Positions 32,255-39,794 of a stretch of DNA of 64,000 nt are shown piece by piece. The DNA is from Halopiger aswanensis. Lineage in GTDB: Archaea; Halobacteriota; Halobacteria; Halobacteriales; Natrialbaceae. A program made the translations under genes and the position numbers. The notes under the pieces are model-generated. The model ran no database searches, had not been told where the DNA came from, and saw only the letters and a program-made list of their open reading frames with translations. The stretch's first letter is position 1. Each line of letters opens with the position of its first letter. The stretch covers positions 124,001 through 188,000 of the forward strand of contig NZ_RAPO01000003.1 in the NCBI RefSeq assembly GCF_003610195.1. Reading direction: 5' to 3'.

Positions 32255-32550
32255 ACGGCCCCGTACTGGCCGTCCGCGCTTATTGGTTTGGTGACGAAAA
32301 TCAGGTCTGATAACGATCTCCCGGACTCGACCGAGCGGATCGACGGCGCGCTCGAGGGGCCGATTCCCGGAATCCGACGGCGTTTCGGGGCCGGCGTTAC
32401 CGGCGGAGCGCGGGGTAGCGCGTCTCGACGGGCGGAAGATTCCCGAACGGGTTCCCGGTAGTTGCAAACGGTGTGGACGAGTGGAGGCGGGTTACCACGG
32501 GCTGGGAACCGGATTCGATTTTTACGCGTCCGTTCGGGGAAGCGTCCGAC

Positions 32551-33756
32551 ATGGCAGCGAATACCGACGCCGTCGACCCGTTTCGGGCGATCGAGCTGCC
32601 CGACGGGAGCGATCCCGTCTCGAAGGGGATCGTTCGCCGGATTCGGTCCGCCGACGGCACGATCACGGTCGAGGTCGCGATCGACGGGCTCGGCGAGGAC
32701 CTCGCGGAGCGCATCGTCGAACAGATCCGCGGCGCGGCGCTGGCGCTGCCCGACGCCGATCACGTCCGGATCCGGCCGGTCCGGGACGCCGACAAAGACA
32801 TCGACCTGCCGTCGGTCGATCACGTCCTCGCGGTCGCGAGCGCGAAGGGTGGCGTGGGGAAGACGACCGTCGCGGTCGCGCTCGCCCGGACGCTCTCGGT
32901 CCGGGGCCACGACGTCGGGCTGTTCGACGCCGACATTTACGGCCCGAACGTTCCCCACTTGCTCTCGGACGTCGAGGGGCCGGTGCTGACGAACGACCAC
33001 GGGCAGCCGGTGCCCCTCGAGACCGACGACGGACTACAGGTGCTCAGTCCGGGCGTGGTCGGCGGCGAGGCCCCGACCGCCCGGCGGGGTGCGATCGCCT
33101 ACGGCGCGGTCGAGAACCTGCTCGGACAGGGCGCCTGGGACGATCGAGACGTCCTCATCATCGACATGCCCGCGGGCACGGACGACGTCGCGGGCGCGGC
33201 GCTGGAACACGTGCCGGTCGACGGCGCCGTCTTCGTGACGACGCCGTTCGACGCGAGCGTCGACGACACCCACAGGACCGTCGACCTGTTCGAGGAGCAC
33301 GGCGTCGCGCCGGTCGCCGCCGTCGTGAACATGAACGGCTTCGACTGCGAGTGCTGCGGGGCGCGCAACCGGCTGTTCGAGGATCCCGTCGACCTCGAGG
33401 TCCCGGCGGTTCACGAACTCCCGTTCGATCGGGACTTCCAGTCCGATCCGGGCGGCGAGGACGCGCCTGCAGAGATCACGGCACTGGCCGACGGCGTCGA
33501 GAGCTTCGTCGACGACGTCCTCGAGGCGGTCCCGGAGGGAACGCTCGATCTCCGGGGCCTGCCGCCGGCCAGCCAGGTGCGGCAGTTGAGCGACGAACTG
33601 GCGGCAGTCGAGGACGGTGCCACCGTCAGCGCGGTGGTCGAAGATCCGACGCAGGTTCGCGACGCCGTGCGAGCGGACGCAGCCCCGCTGCTCGCGGCAA
33701 CCGAACGCAAGGGCCTGAACACTACCGGCGGGTTGCTCGAGCTAACCCGGGCCTGA
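32551..33756 (+). CDS. Mrp/NBP35-type Fe-S cluster carrier ATPase
   Basis: 401 residues. An N-terminal DUF59/MIP18-like region (about 1-80) precedes the P-loop ASAKGGVGKTT (about residue 105), the SIMIBI Walker B region VLIIDMPAGTDD, and the cluster-binding CxxC in NGFDCECCGARN, which has an extra Cys in the middle. C-terminal residues about 300-401 are an extension. Members assemble and hand over [4Fe-4S] clusters. The ATG at 32551 follows a TTTTTA box by about 28 nt. It lies immediately upstream of a molybdoenzyme with at least four Fe-S clusters, which it could serve. Confidence 0.87.
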   Translation: MAANTDAVDPFRAIELPDGSDPVSKGIVRRIRSADGTITVEVAIDGLGEDLAERIVEQIRGAALALPDADHVRIRPVRDADKDIDLPSVDHVLAVASAKGGVGKTTVAVALARTLSVRGHDVGLFDADIYGPNVPHLLSDVEGPVLTNDHGQPVPLETDDGLQVLSPGVVGGEAPTARRGAIAYGAVENLLGQGAWDDRDVLIIDMPAGTDDVAGAALEHVPVDGAVFVTTPFDASVDDTHRTVDLFEEHGVAPVAAVVNMNGFDCECCGARNRLFEDPVDLEVPAVHELPFDRDFQSDPGGEDAPAEITALADGVESFVDDVLEAVPEGTLDLRGLPPASQVRQLSDELAAVEDGATVSAVVEDPTQVRDAVRADAAPLLAATERKGLNTTGGLLELTRA

Positions 33757-34050: not shown

Positions 34051-34058
34051 ATGTCTGA
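33984..34058 (+). CDS. possible leaderless upstream ORF (24 residues)
   Basis: An ATG at 33984, about 25 nt after TTACAG, opens a 24-codon frame rich in Arg, His and Ser. Its TGA (34056-34058) overlaps the start of the alpha subunit (ATGTCTGA), so translation of the two is likely coupled. Whether the peptide itself matters is unknown. Confidence 0.38.
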   Translation: MRPKQHARHRPSSASRTVRWCHDV

Positions 34059-37000
34059 ACGTGAATCGACCGGCGGCGGAGCGGGTGACCGACCGTCGAT
34101 CTCACGCCGGGACCTCCTCGGCGGTGCCGGAGCAGCCGGTATCGCCGGTTTCGCAGGTTGCTCCCGGCTGTTCGACGACGGCGGCAGCGCGACCCAGGAG
34201 CCGTCCGAGACCGGCGCGGAGTTCCCGAACCCGCTGACGGAGTACCCCAACCGCGAGTGGGAGGACCACTACCGCGACGTCTGGGACGTCGACGACACGT
34301 ACTACCTGGCGTGTCGCCCCAACGACACCCACAACTGCTACCTCGAGGCGAACGTCAAGAACGGCGTCGTCACGAGGCTCGGGCCGTCGATGAACTACGG
34401 CGACGCCGAGGACCTGTACGGCAACCAGGCCTCGGATCGCTGGGACCCCCGGGTCTGCCAGAAGGGCCTGTCGATGGTCGAGCGGTTCTACGGCGAGCGC
34501 CGCGTCACGTCGCCGATGATCCGGCAGGGGTTCAAAGACTGGGTCGACGAGGGCTTCCCGCGCGACGACGACGGCTCCATGCCCGCGGAGTACGCCCAGC
34601 GCGGCGAGGATAGCTGGTACGAGGCCTCCTGGGACGAAGCCTACGAGTACGCCGCGGCGGCGTTCGTCGAGATCGCCGACCACTACAGCGGCGAAGCGGG
34701 CCAGGAGATGCTGCTCGAGCAGGGCTACGACGAGCGGGTCGTCGAGGAGATGCAGGGGGTCGGCACGCGCACGATGAAGTTCCGCGGCGGGATGCCGATG
34801 CTGAGCACGCTCGGCCTGTTCGGCGAGTACCGCTTCGCCAACTCGCTGGCGCTGTTGGACCACCACGTCCGGGACGTCCCGGAGGACGAGGCGCTGGGCG
34901 GCGTCGGCGGCGACAACTACTCGTTCCACACCGACCTGCCGCCGGGCCATCCGATGGTGACCGGCCAGCAGACCGTCGACTTCGACCTGGCGAACGTCGA
35001 GTACGCCGACCACATCGTGATGGCCGGGATGAACTGGATCTGCACCAAGATGGCCGACTCCCACTGGCTGACCGAGGCCAAGATGCGCGGGGCCAAGATC
35101 ACGGGCATCTACACCGACTACAACGCCACGGCCTCGAAGTGCGACGAGCTGGTCATCATCCGGCCGGCGACCGACACGGCGCTGTTCCTCGGCGTCTCCC
35201 AGCAGATCATCGCAAACGGCGACTACGACGAGGAGTTCGTCCGGTCGAACACGGACCTCCCCCTGCTGGTCCGCATGGACACCGGCGAACACCTCCGGGC
35301 CAGCGACGTCTTCCCGGACTACGACCCTGCAGACCTCGAGAAGACGCGGGTCGCGCCGGCCGAGGAACACCCCGCGCCGACGACCGTCGACACCGACCAG
35401 CAGTGGATCACGCCCGAGCAGCGCGAGGAGTGGGACGACTTCGTCGTCTACGACCGCGAGGCCGGCGGCGTCACGCCGATCGACCGCGAGCAGGTCGGCG
35501 ACGAGTTCGACGTCGACGCCGCCCTCGAGGGCAGTTGGGAGCTCGAGCTGGCGAACGGCGAGACGGTCGAGGTGCGACCGGTCTTCGACCTGATCTCCGA
35601 GTACCTGGGCGAGACCTGGGACGCCGAGTCGACGGCCGAGGTCACCGGCACCGACCCCGAAGCGGTCCGGAACCTCGCCGCGGAGTTCGCCGACAACAAG
35701 GAGGAGACGCTCATCCTCACCGGGATGGGGCCCAACCAGTACTTCAACGGCGATCTGAAGGACCGCGCCGCCTTCCTGCTGGCGTCGCTGACCAGCAATA
35801 TCGGGACCCACAGCGGCAACATCGGCAGCTACGCGGGGAACTACCGCGCGGCCATGCTCAACGGGATTCCCCACTACCACCTCGAGGATCCGTTCGACCC
35901 CGAGCTCGACCCCGAGGCCGACTCCACCGTCGACGGCCGCATCACGATGGAGTCGATGCACTTCTACTCGAACCTCGACAAGCCGCTGAAGATCGACGGG
36001 GAGTACCACATGGGCGACTCCCACATGAACACGCCCTCGAAGTCGTTCTGGGTCGCCGGCTCGAACTCCATCCTCGGCAACGCGAAGGGGTCCTACAAGA
36101 TCATCGAGGACATGCTCCGCGAGGGGCAGATCGAGGCGTTCTTCTGCAACGAGTGGTGGTGGACGATGACCTGCGAGTATTCGGACATCGTCTTCCCCGT
36201 CGACTCGTGGGCAGAGCAGAAGATCCACGACGTCACCGCCTCGGTCACGAACCCGTTCCTGATGGTGTTCCCCGAGTCGGACCTCGAGCGCATCTACGAC
36301 ACCCGCCACGACTGTCAGGTCTACAAGGGCGTCGCCGAGAAACTCGCCGAGGAGTTCGACGAACCCCGCTTCGAGGACATGTGGGCGTTCATCGACGAGG
36401 ACGAGTACCGGGCCAAGCCGTACCTCCAGCGCATCCTCGACAACTCCAACATGACGAAGGGGTACGACGTCGAGGACCTGCTCGAGCGCGCGAGACGCGG
36501 CGAGCCGGCCCTGATGATGGGGACGACCTACCCCTCGAAGGTCGGTACCCGTCAGGTGGAGGACGACGAACCCTGGTACACTCGAACCGGTCGCCTCGAG
36601 TTCTTCCGCGAGGAGGAGACCTGGTCCGAGGTCGGCGAGAACCTCCCGGTCCACCGCGAGGCGATCGACGGCACGGTCTACAAGCCGAACGTCATCGTCG
36701 ACGACAGCGACCACCCGCTGATCGACCCCGAGACGCCCGCGGACCTCGGATGGGACGACGACATGGTCGACGACCCCGACGCCAGGCAGGTCCGCAACGA
36801 GGTGCTGAGCACCGACGAACTGCTCGAGTCGAACCACCCCTTACAGGACGTCGATCCGGGATTCAAGTACTCCTACATGACGCCGAAGTACCGCCACGGG
36901 GCCCACACGTTCTGTAACGCCCTGCCGAACATCGCGGTCTGGTGGGGCCCCTTCGGCGACCGGGACCGCGAGGACGAGCGCAAGCCCTACTTCGGCGAGG

Positions 37001-37581
37001 GGTTCGTCGAGATGAATCCCGAAGACGCCCGCGAGGAGGGCTTCGAGGACGGCGACTACGTCTGGGTCGACGCCGATCCGAGCGACCGTCCCTACCCCAG
37101 CGCGGACGGCGACCCAGAGGAGTACACGCGTGCGTTGATGCGCGTGCGCTACCAGCCGGCGATGCCCCGCAGCGTGACTCGAACCTGGTTCAACCTCAAC
37201 CAGACCAGCCACGCCACCGCAGAAGCGACGCCGGACCGGGAGGGACTGGCGAAAAACGAGGAGACCGACTACGTCTCCCTCTATCGGCGCGGCGGCCACC
37301 AGAGCATGACCCGCTCGTGGCTCCGGCCGACCCTCCTGACCGACGAGATGAACCGCAAGGGCCTGATGGGCCAGACGATCGGGACGGGCTTCGCCCCGGA
37401 CGTCCACTGCGCCAACGGCGCGCCCCGCGAGTCCTTCGTCAAGTTCGAGAAGGAAGGCGACGCCGGCGAGGACGGCGAGGGCCTGTGGCGCCCCGCCGAG
37501 ATGGGGCTTCGACCCGGCTACGAGACCGACGCGATGGAGCGGTACCTGAACGGCGACTTCACGAGCACGTCAACGGAGTGA
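34051..37581 (+). CDS. Tat-exported molybdopterin oxidoreductase alpha subunit (type II DMSO reductase family)
   Basis: 1176 residues. A Tat signal (SRRDLL, Arg19-Arg20) with lipobox FAGC (Cys37) directs export and probably lipid anchoring on the outer face. The cluster motif reads Cys88-x3-Asp92-x3-Cys96 ... Cys136, where NarG-like enzymes have His-x3-Cys-x3-Cys ... Cys. Asp295 in HTDLPPGHP aligns with the molybdenum-ligand Asp of NarG (SDLPP). Further bis-MGD contacts are GMNWICTKMADSHW and LTGMGPNQYFNGD. The C-terminal domain has SYMTPKYRHGAHTFCN and RSVTRTWFNLNQ. Relatives reduce nitrate, (per)chlorate or selenate, or oxidise dimethyl sulfide or ethylbenzene; the substrate is undetermined. 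First gene of an alpha-beta-chaperone operon. Confidence 0.88.
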   Translation: MSERESTGGGAGDRPSISRRDLLGGAGAAGIAGFAGCSRLFDDGGSATQEPSETGAEFPNPLTEYPNREWEDHYRDVWDVDDTYYLACRPNDTHNCYLEANVKNGVVTRLGPSMNYGDAEDLYGNQASDRWDPRVCQKGLSMVERFYGERRVTSPMIRQGFKDWVDEGFPRDDDGSMPAEYAQRGEDSWYEASWDEAYEYAAAAFVEIADHYSGEAGQEMLLEQGYDERVVEEMQGVGTRTMKFRGGMPMLSTLGLFGEYRFANSLALLDHHVRDVPEDEALGGVGGDNYSFHTDLPPGHPMVTGQQTVDFDLANVEYADHIVMAGMNWICTKMADSHWLTEAKMRGAKITGIYTDYNATASKCDELVIIRPATDTALFLGVSQQIIANGDYDEEFVRSNTDLPLLVRMDTGEHLRASDVFPDYDPADLEKTRVAPAEEHPAPTTVDTDQQWITPEQREEWDDFVVYDREAGGVTPIDREQVGDEFDVDAALEGSWELELANGETVEVRPVFDLISEYLGETWDAESTAEVTGTDPEAVRNLAAEFADNKEETLILTGMGPNQYFNGDLKDRAAFLLASLTSNIGTHSGNIGSYAGNYRAAMLNGIPHYHLEDPFDPELDPEADSTVDGRITMESMHFYSNLDKPLKIDGEYHMGDSHMNTPSKSFWVAGSNSILGNAKGSYKIIEDMLREGQIEAFFCNEWWWTMTCEYSDIVFPVDSWAEQKIHDVTASVTNPFLMVFPESDLERIYDTRHDCQVYKGVAEKLAEEFDEPRFEDMWAFIDEDEYRAKPYLQRILDNSNMTKGYDVEDLLERARRGEPALMMGTTYPSKVGTRQVEDDEPWYTRTGRLEFFREEETWSEVGENLPVHREAIDGTVYKPNVIVDDSDHPLIDPETPADLGWDDDMVDDPDARQVRNEVLSTDELLESNHPLQDVDPGFKYSYMTPKYRHGAHTFCNALPNIAVWWGPFGDRDREDERKPYFGEGFVEMNPEDAREEGFEDGDYVWVDADPSDRPYPSADGDPEEYTRALMRVRYQPAMPRSVTRTWFNLNQTSHATAEATPDREGLAKNEETDYVSLYRRGGHQSMTRSWLRPTLLTDEMNRKGLMGQTIGTGFAPDVHCANGAPRESFVKFEKEGDAGEDGEGLWRPAEMGLRPGYETDAMERYLNGDFTSTSTE

Positions 37582-37587
37582 TTTCAA

Positions 37588-38793
37588 ATGGCAACAGTAG
37601 ACAACTGGCAACTCGGCCGCGAGGTGGAATACCCCTACGAGGGGGCCCGGCCCGACGATCAGTGGGCGGCCGTCTTCGACCTGAACAAGTGTATCGCGTG
37701 CCAGACGTGTACCCTGGCCTGCAAGACCACGTGGACCCACGAGGAGGGCCAGGAGCACATGTTCTGGAACAACGTCGAAACCAAACCCTACGGCTCCCAC
37801 CCCGTCGGCTGGGACCAGCGCACCCTCGAGGAGCTCGGAGCCGGCGAGTGGGCCGACGACGGCACCTACGAGGGCGATACGATCTTCGAAGCGGAAGACG
37901 TCGACTGGGACGACCCCGAGAACCACCCGCAGGAGAGCCAGAGCGCGCGCGACGACATCGCGGGGTTCATGCCGGGCCCCGACGACTGGCGCTACCCGAA
38001 CTTGGGCGAGGACGAGATCGCGGGCGACACGATGGAGTCGATCGACCACTTCGACGAGGAGACCCACCCGGTGTGGTTCTTCTACCTCCCGCGGATCTGT
38101 AACCACTGTACGTACGCCGCCTGCGCCGGCTCCTGTCCGGTGCCGGCCATCTACAAGCGCGAGGAGGACGGGGTCGTCCTCATCGACGAGGACTCCTGCC
38201 AAGCGTTCCAGCAGTGTAACGAGGCCTGCCCGTACAAGAAGTCGATCTTCAACCTCGCCGAGAGCGTCTCCCAGAAGTGCATCGGCTGTTACACCAAAAC
38301 CGAGCAGGGGAAAGTCCCGCAGTGCTTCGAGAACTGCCTCGGGAAGATCCGCCTCCACGGCTACATCAACCCGCCCGAGGAAGCCGACGACACCGATCCG
38401 ACCGAAGAGCCGACGAACCCGCTCGACTTCGTCGTCCACCAGAAGGAACTGGCGAAGCCGCTGTACCCGCAGTTCGGCCTCGAGCCGAACGTCTACTACG
38501 TGCCGCCGATCACGGCCGCGACGGACTACCTCACTCAGCTGTTCGGCCCCGGCGTCGAGGACGCCATCGAGACCTACCGGGCGATGCGCAACGGCGAGGA
38601 ACCCGAACTCGAGGGACTGTTCAAGCTGATGGGGTCGACCGAGTGGTCGCTGACGGCCTTCGAGATCGACGGCGACGAGGCGGTCGGGTACTACGAGGGC
38701 GACGAGGTCGGCCGCGTGCCGATCACCGAGCCGACGGCCGAACGGAACCGCTACGACGAGGACCAGGAGGTCTACCGACTCGACATCACGTAA
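37588..38793 (+). CDS. four-cluster Fe-S beta subunit (NarH/EbdB-like)
   Basis: 401 residues. Cluster motifs in order: CIACQTCTLACK (residue about 35), CNHCTYAACAGSCP, CQAFQQCNEACPYKK and CIGCYTKTEQGKVPQCFENC. In the third motif the position of the second Cys is Phe (as Trp in NarH), implying one [3Fe-4S] and three [4Fe-4S] clusters. MFWNNVETKPYG matches the NarH-type start. No signal peptide; such subunits travel with the Tat-signalled alpha subunit. It passes electrons to or from alpha. It starts six bases after the alpha stop. No cytochrome b gamma subunit gene follows, so the external electron partner is unclear. Confidence 0.92.
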   Translation: MATVDNWQLGREVEYPYEGARPDDQWAAVFDLNKCIACQTCTLACKTTWTHEEGQEHMFWNNVETKPYGSHPVGWDQRTLEELGAGEWADDGTYEGDTIFEAEDVDWDDPENHPQESQSARDDIAGFMPGPDDWRYPNLGEDEIAGDTMESIDHFDEETHPVWFFYLPRICNHCTYAACAGSCPVPAIYKREEDGVVLIDEDSCQAFQQCNEACPYKKSIFNLAESVSQKCIGCYTKTEQGKVPQCFENCLGKIRLHGYINPPEEADDTDPTEEPTNPLDFVVHQKELAKPLYPQFGLEPNVYYVPPITAATDYLTQLFGPGVEDAIETYRAMRNGEEPELEGLFKLMGSTEWSLTAFEIDGDEAVGYYEGDEVGRVPITEPTAERNRYDEDQEVYRLDIT

Positions 38794-38795
38794 CT

Positions 38796-39794
38796 ATGAG
38801 CGAACACGCCAACACCATCCTCGGCGGTCCGCCGAGTGCGGGCGGCGCAGACGGTTCCGACGACGGGACCGACGAGTCGCCGCCAGCGGACGATCGGTCA
38901 CCGGCAGTAGCGACCGAACCGCCCGGCGACCTCGAGACCGCGGTCCACCGCAGCCGGCTCTACTCGCTGTGCTCGCTGGGCTTCGACCGTCCCGGTGACG
39001 ACTTCGCGGCCGCCCGCGAGGCGGGCGCCTACGACGAGGATCTCTGCGAGTCCGCCGCTGCGATCGGCGAGGACGTTGCGGCCGCCGCCGCGGCCGTCGC
39101 CGACGCGCTCGAGGACGCCGACCACCGGACCCTCCACGATCAGTGGGCTTCCCTGTTCGGCGTCGAGGAGGGCGTGACGGTCTCGCCGTACGAACTCACC
39201 TACCTGCCCGGCCCGCTGATGACCAACGTGCGCCGGCTGGCCGACATCAGCGGCTTCTACGAGGCCTTCGACCTCGACATCGCCGAGGGGAAGACCGACC
39301 GGGGCGATCACGTCTGCTTCCTCGCGGAGTTTCTGAGCCACCTCAGCCACCGGGAAGCGGCGCTCCGGCTCGAGGGCGACGACGAGGGCGTCGCGGTCGT
39401 CGTCGACGCGCGCCGGTCGTTCCTCGAGGACCACCTCGGGCGCTGGTACTGGCGGTTCGCCGACGAGGTCGGCGCTCACGACGACGGCGAACCGGCCGTC
39501 TACGCCGCGCTCGCGGAACTGCTCGCAGCGCTGGTCGAACGCGAGGTCGAGCGACTGGATCTCGAGCCCGACTGGGTGCCCGACGATCCGCAGGTGACGG
39601 AGTGGAACGAGGACGTCTTCGGCGACACCGGGCGGGGCTGTGGCGGCTGCGGCGTCGACGCCGGTGGTCCGGGTCCGAGCCCGAGTCCGAGCGACGTCGA
39701 ATCCGATCGCGTTCTCGGAAAAGGTTCCAACCCCGATCTCGATCCCGGTCCTGTCTCCGACGTCGGAAAACCGGGTGACGCCGACGGGAGCTAA
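38796..39794 (+). CDS. TorD/DmsD/NarJ-type molybdoenzyme maturation chaperone
   Basis: 332 residues. A disordered N-terminus (1 to about 45) precedes an all-helical TorD-like domain (about 48-260): RLYSLCSLGFDRPG, SPYELTYLPGP, ADISGFYEAFDLD and DHVCFLAEFLSHL are the family's landmarks. Such chaperones hold the apo alpha subunit, help cofactor insertion and guard the Tat signal. After the domain comes an unusual tail with GRGCGGCGVDAGG followed by Gly/Pro/Ser/Asp-rich sequence; the three Cys might bind a metal. It starts two bases after the beta stop, completing the operon. Confidence 0.85.
   Translation: MSEHANTILGGPPSAGGADGSDDGTDESPPADDRSPAVATEPPGDLETAVHRSRLYSLCSLGFDRPGDDFAAAREAGAYDEDLCESAAAIGEDVAAAAAAVADALEDADHRTLHDQWASLFGVEEGVTVSPYELTYLPGPLMTNVRRLADISGFYEAFDLDIAEGKTDRGDHVCFLAEFLSHLSHREAALRLEGDDEGVAVVVDARRSFLEDHLGRWYWRFADEVGAHDDGEPAVYAALAELLAALVEREVERLDLEPDWVPDDPQVTEWNEDVFGDTGRGCGGCGVDAGGPGPSPSPSDVESDRVLGKGSNPDLDPGPVSDVGKPGDADGS

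Follow-up and report, generated by a model that had tools for sequence, protein, structure and literature searches.

Coordination of the FS0 cluster in nitrate reductases and nitrite oxidoreductases

In nitrite oxidoreductases (NXRs) and nitrate reductases (NARs), the FS0 cluster is coordinated either by three cysteines and one aspartate (3Cys/1Asp) or by three cysteines and one histidine (3Cys/1His), depending on the lineage (PMC8387239). In the crystal structure of Kuenenia stuttgartiensis NxrA, FS0 is held by C67, D71, C75, and C115, a coordination that its authors termed unusual, and the enzyme (KsNXR) works in both directions (PMC8387239). Four positions near the active site were reported to separate NXR from NAR (PMC12300631).

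The canonical NarGH of haloarchaea (Haloferax larsenii / H. mediterranei type) is likewise a type II molybdenum enzyme. Its NarG, of about 950-980 residues, carries His-x3-Cys-x3-Cys at FS0, and its gene cluster encodes a Rieske protein, cytochrome b, NarG, NarH, an EB_dh-type gamma subunit, a chaperone, a HEAT protein, and a P-loop NTPase, the last of which stands at the end of the clusters of Haloferax larsenii and Halarchaeum. The His pattern of haloarchaeal NarG was described with two exceptions, Halobiforma haloterrestris and Halopiger aswanensis, the alternative residues not being named in the text (PMC8301774). Six NarGs from Natrialbaceae were found to be longer than the rest, with Fe-S sites that were called very well conserved (data not shown in that study; PMC8400030); judging from family and length, all six probably belong to the Asp-type proteins described below. 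Halobiforma genomes were scored as containing narG and narH without narI (PMC11052009). The published surveys treat the Halobiforma haloterrestris protein and the longer Natrialbaceae NarGs as ordinary NarG. A literature search, which left most subscription journals outside its reach, found no report tying haloarchaeal Asp-type proteins to the NXR lineage, and no biochemistry of any haloarchaeal or acidobacterial member in the literature searched.

A nar-like module in Halopiger aswanensis

The module studied here lies in a 64,000-nt stretch of the Halopiger aswanensis genome (the window). It consists of genes for a P-loop carrier, an alpha subunit, a beta subunit, and a chaperone, in this order (Table 1), and shares with the canonical haloarchaeal NarGH the type II Mo enzyme, Tat export, the four-cluster beta subunit, the TorD chaperone, and the P-loop NTPase. 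Its assignment to the type II Mo-bisMGD enzymes is supported by D295, which aligns with the Asp of NarG and NXR, and by matches of the module to TIGR03479, TIGR03478, and TIGR03482. The alpha subunit scores 302.9 bits against TIGR03479, under the curated cut-off of 984.75, and 123.8 bits against TIGR01580, the model for canonical NarG of the E. coli type.

Table 1. Features of the module and of its alpha subunit, in window coordinates
Feature	Position	Strand	Basis
Mrp/ApbC-type (NUBPL) P-loop NTPase, putative Fe-S carrier or maturation factor	32473..33756	+	PF10609 E=5e-50, PF01883
Alpha subunit, 1176 aa, type II Mo-bisMGD oxidoreductase, NXR / Asp-type NAR lineage, Tat-exported (predicted)	34051..37581	+	7b04 NxrA E=1.1e-221 over 58-1170
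Twin arginine R19-R20 and lipobox ending in Cys37, alpha N-terminus	34105..34161	+	sequence
FS0 motif C88-R-P-N91-D92-T-H-N-C96 in alpha	34312..34338	+	alignment; ligands from crystal structure PMC8387239
C136 in alpha, fourth FS0 ligand (predicted)	34456..34458	+	aligned with C115 of NxrA and fourth Cys of NarG
D295 in alpha, predicted Mo ligand	34933..34935	+	aligned with Asp275 of NxrA and Mo-binding Asp of NarG
Beta subunit, 401 aa, four-cluster Fe-S protein (NxrB/NarH type)	37588..38793	+	NxrB E=3.5e-94; TIGR03478 E=8e-71
TorD/NarJ-type chaperone, start codon approximate	38796..39794	+	TIGR03482 E=9e-23; PF02613 Nitrate_red_del E=7e-17

Three components of canonical nar have no gene in the module: the haem gamma subunit, the Rieske protein, and cytochrome b. 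No gamma gene adjoins it, the EB_dh domain (PF09459) was not found anywhere in the Halopiger genome, and none of the haloarchaeal Asp-type copies inspected has a gamma gene next to it. From the lack of Rieske, cytochrome b, and haem gamma genes, we infer that electrons must come via an unlinked partner.

The rpoB, rpoA, nusA-like, rps12, rps7, and EF-2 genes form an otherwise contiguous block in archaea. In the window (25325-49271), this run is split by the nar-like module together with genes for an aldehyde dehydrogenase and an FMN-dependent dehydrogenase. A nar-like module occupies the identical rpoB/EF-2 site in three further loci (L056, L038, and L039), and the enzyme of Halobiforma haloterrestris, whose alpha subunit is 93% identical to that of Halopiger, is encoded at the same chromosomal site.

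The FS0 motif of the alpha subunit

The codons of the four putative FS0 ligands were read directly from the DNA (C88, 34312-34314; D92, 34324-34326; C96, 34336-34338; C136, 34456-34458). The initial annotation had placed these residues at the FS0 positions of NarG and had named alignment of C88 elsewhere as a way in which this could fail. Alignment with the NarGs of Haloferax larsenii and Halarchaeum, both of which carry the His-x3-Cys-x3-Cys expected of canonical enzymes, confirmed the placement exactly: C88 takes the place of the His and D92 that of the first Cys, and the other two ligands are matched by C96 and C136. The E. coli NarG stretch from 3ir5 shows a Cys at position 49, which we take to be an engineered H49C variant rather than the wild type.

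Among solved structures, the best match of the alpha subunit, near full length, is NxrA of Kuenenia stuttgartiensis (PDB 7B04; 38% identity, compared with about 30% for His-type haloarchaeal NarG), and the best match of the beta subunit is likewise NxrB of 7b04; PcrA, EbdA, and NarG rank behind NxrA as matches of alpha, with E=3e-50 and weaker. The FS0 loops read CRPNDTHNC in Halopiger and CSPNDTHAC in Kuenenia, so that D92 occupies the position of the Kuenenia ligand Asp71 and N91 that of its substrate-side Asn70. The identical PNDTH stretch, together with the crystallographic 3Cys/1Asp coordination in Kuenenia NxrA, provides a structural precedent for the motif. The initial annotation was right that canonical NarG has His and that Asp is the likely fourth ligand, but its stress on the rarity of such a ligand was misplaced here: 3Cys/1Asp coordination was already known from periplasmic-type NXRs and part of the NAR lineages (PMC8387239). 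With C-x-P-N-D-T-H-x-C and the distal Cys both present, the motif is, as judged from alignment, the established 3Cys/1Asp FS0 motif, and its bearer probably represents a branch that haloarchaea have within the NXR / Asp-type NAR lineage. By homology, FS0 of the Halopiger enzyme is likely bound by C88, D92, C96, and C136. An AlphaFold model of alpha, built with 19 aligned relatives, had a mean pLDDT of 47 (about 35-40 in the FS0 region), too poor to describe the site.

That D92 is not a ligand, and that His94, another residue, or solvent binds instead or the cluster is 3Fe-4S, is hardly credible. In its favour, H94 belongs to the loop that holds D92 and matches it in conservation across the clade, and the Asp71 precedent comes from Kuenenia rather than from the Halopiger protein. 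Against it, Kuenenia NxrA shares the entire PNDTH stretch, that His included, and its crystal structure has Asp71 as the ligand.

Distribution and phylogeny of the Asp-type enzymes

A search of 292 Halobacteria genomes, in which the whole alpha protein rather than the motif served as the query, recovered full-length Asp-type homologues (64-94% identity) in 24 genomes, with one or two copies each. Every full-length haloarchaeal copy read from this set contains C-x-P-N-D-T-H-N-C, and both a chance occurrence and a degraded or mutated FS0 motif were rejected on this ground. The carriers include Halobiforma haloterrestris, Natrinema thermotolerans, Halovenus carboxidivorans, and Halobiforma nitratireducens, the last with two copies. 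The Halopiger genome itself holds a second alpha copy (C1:187139-190657), 66% identical to the first and with the same CxPNDTHNC motif.

The initial annotation had correctly described an alpha subunit of 1176 residues with a lipobox, a Phe-type cluster site in beta, and the missing gamma gene, and had found this combination puzzling. In beta, the Phe fills the aromatic position associated with the fourth cluster (CQAFQQCNEACPYK). These features are present, but they are variable or clade-wide in haloarchaea: the open frames of the clade span about 1169-1237 residues, the lipobox occurs in only some copies, and the beta site is Phe, Tyr, or Trp. The lipobox and the beta Phe were therefore rejected as special traits, since each varies among orthologues.

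The next relatives, at 48-51% identity, are mainly from Acidobacteriota metagenome-assembled genomes and contain the same CxPNDTHNC loop, in a set biased toward the motif by a scan that took it as one of two patterns. These Acidobacteriota-rich enzymes (L078, L081, and others) share with the haloarchaeal ones the FS0 loop, the Thr332 and Met559 sites, and the TorD chaperone. Their operon, however, includes genes for a Rieske protein, cytochrome b, a multihaem cytochrome c, and the haem gamma subunit, all of which are absent from the haloarchaeal module. A quick maximum-likelihood tree, which holds Kuenenia as its one NXR and leaves out Nitrospira, Nitrospina, Hydrogenobaculum, and His-type NarG, recovers all haloarchaeal copies as a single clade (support 100) next to a bacterial (acidobacterial) one, with Kuenenia outside the two. 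The Asp-type clade groups with Kuenenia against a 4-Cys outgroup, the deep order being unsure owing to the long branches that lead to Kuenenia and the outgroup. Alignment scores and identity (38% versus 30%) favour a grouping with NxrA over one with His-type NarG.

Replacement of NarG and the denitrification context

The Halopiger module departs from canonical NarGH both at FS0, where C88 and D92 stand in place of His and Cys, and in gene content, with no operon of Rieske, cytochrome b, and EB_dh genes. His-type NarG is present in 60 of the 292 Halobacteria genomes and the Asp-type enzyme in 24, and no genome has both. The expected number of co-occurrences is 4.9 (P=0.003, a value that treats related genomes as independent), and the mutual exclusion is in part a family effect of the Natrialbaceae.

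The Asp-type carriers are weakly enriched in nirK (18 of 24, versus 143 of 268 other genomes; P=0.05), six of them having none, and 13 of the 24 have nosZ. The Halopiger genome has three nirK genes and a nos cluster just beyond the window, where nosZ is separated from the alpha gene by about 34 kb. One of the alpha genes of Natronococcus amylolyticus (G248) shares its contig with nosZ, at a distance of about 17-19 kb. Halobiforma nitratireducens, with its two Asp-type copies, has no His-type NarG. This species is named for its nitrate-reducing phenotype. Together, the exclusion of NarG, the nirK/nosZ context, and Halobiforma nitratireducens point to nitrate reduction in denitrification.

The proximal nos genes were located directly upstream of the window start (L141 5569-11649, G000:C3), as a nosZ cluster with NosD-, NosF-, and NosY-like genes.

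Proposed function and active-site residues

Taken jointly, these data make it probable that the module belongs to a haloarchaeal NXR / Asp-type NAR branch and most likely encodes an extracytoplasmic nitrate reductase of denitrification that replaces the His-type NarGH. The alpha subunit would be matured by the adjoining chaperone, and probably also by the adjoining Fe-S carrier, and, once folded, it would leave the cytoplasm through Tat along with the four-cluster beta subunit. With FS0 held by the four predicted ligands beside the Mo-bisMGD, the enzyme would reduce nitrate to nitrite outside the cytoplasm and thereby supply NirK-Nor-Nos denitrification; an unlinked carrier, not a haem gamma subunit, would deliver the electrons, and the Asp-type enzyme would stand in for canonical His-type NarGH. 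The initial annotation had regarded the role as uncertain, which still applies to direction and oxyanion range only.

The active site was compared with that of Kuenenia NxrAB, to which both subunits are homologous over their full length. The Mo Asp, the substrate-side Asn, and the Lys beside FS0 (the equivalent of Lys917) are all conserved in alpha. At the four positions that separate NXR from NAR, D92 and K946 are NXR-like, T332 is NAR-like, and M559 is neither; within the NXR set Glu527/Asn312/Lys917, alpha matches Lys917 only, Glu527 being replaced by Met559 and Asn312 by Thr332. The position of Met559 is Glu in NXR, Ala in E. coli NAR, and Lys in haloarchaeal NAR. The acidobacterial relatives carry the same mixture of residues, and some haloarchaeal copies have Ser for Thr332. 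As the residues are mixed, the direction is not fixed by sequence alone. The Halopiger module further differs from Kuenenia NXR in having a gene for an Mrp-type carrier and none for the haem gamma subunit (NXR-C).

The Met559 that the clade has in place of the Glu of NXR and the Lys of haloarchaeal NAR also bears on the substrate. Type II enzymes act on chlorate, perchlorate, selenate, or similar oxyanions, and the Halopiger enzyme might reduce one of these instead of nitrate. We regard this as unlikely, in view of the denitrification genes in the carrier genomes and of PcrA, which has a His-type FS0 and a far lower alignment score; also, none of the genes flanking the module was recognised as a chlorite dismutase.

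It is more doubtful still that the enzyme is mainly a nitrite oxidoreductase that makes nitrate from nitrite, with halocyanin and a terminal oxidase receiving the electrons. The nearest solved enzyme is an NXR, itself reversible, and both D92, as an Asp ligand of FS0, and K946 agree with NXR. Asp and His coordination of FS0 are, however, found in NXR and NAR lineages alike (PMC8387239), the haloarchaeal and acidobacterial clade differs from Kuenenia NXR at Glu527 and Asn312, the high-potential haem gamma is absent, and the carriers tend to have nirK and nosZ. In the improbable event that haloarchaea do oxidise nitrite, or work both ways, with the Asp-type enzyme, this would be the first archaeal NXR, and a gamma-free one.

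A cluster that looked odd becomes a known one. What is new is only that haloarchaea have their own branch of the NXR family and probably use it for nitrate reduction instead of the canonical enzyme. This amounts to a modest correction of the literature: haloarchaeal nitrate reductases are not all of the His type at FS0, the Asp type being found instead in 24 of 292 genomes and never with the His type. Genetics is available for some haloarchaea. Because the anammox NXR is not open to mutation (PMC8387239), a haloarchaeal member could allow a mutational test of FS0, in which the effect of Asp versus Cys or His on potential and direction could be probed.

Related loci in haloarchaea

Haloarchaeal matches at 36% identity were considered as canonical NarG and rejected, as they show C-H-P-N-C-x3-C (4 Cys). 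A third haloarchaeal type II enzyme (L029-L033 and L137:5995-9189) has C-H-P-N-C-x3-C at FS0, probably with four Cys ligands. This enzyme often co-occurs with canonical NarG, and one locus (L137) has halocyanin and rSAM/RiPP genes close by.

The second Halopiger copy of the Asp-type alpha gene is followed by MobB and a WtpA/WtpB-like (Wtp/Mod-type) tungstate/molybdate transporter (L034 13907-16456), and the enzyme may use either Mo or W. On plasmid 2 of Natronococcus occultus SP4 (L139 6001-9494 / L050 6820-10370), the Asp-type alpha is split over two frames with no CDS listed, and the beta and chaperone genes beside it are annotated as intact. In another genome (G099; L044 7521-8213), alpha is reduced to its last 230 codons, ahead of intact beta and chaperone genes.
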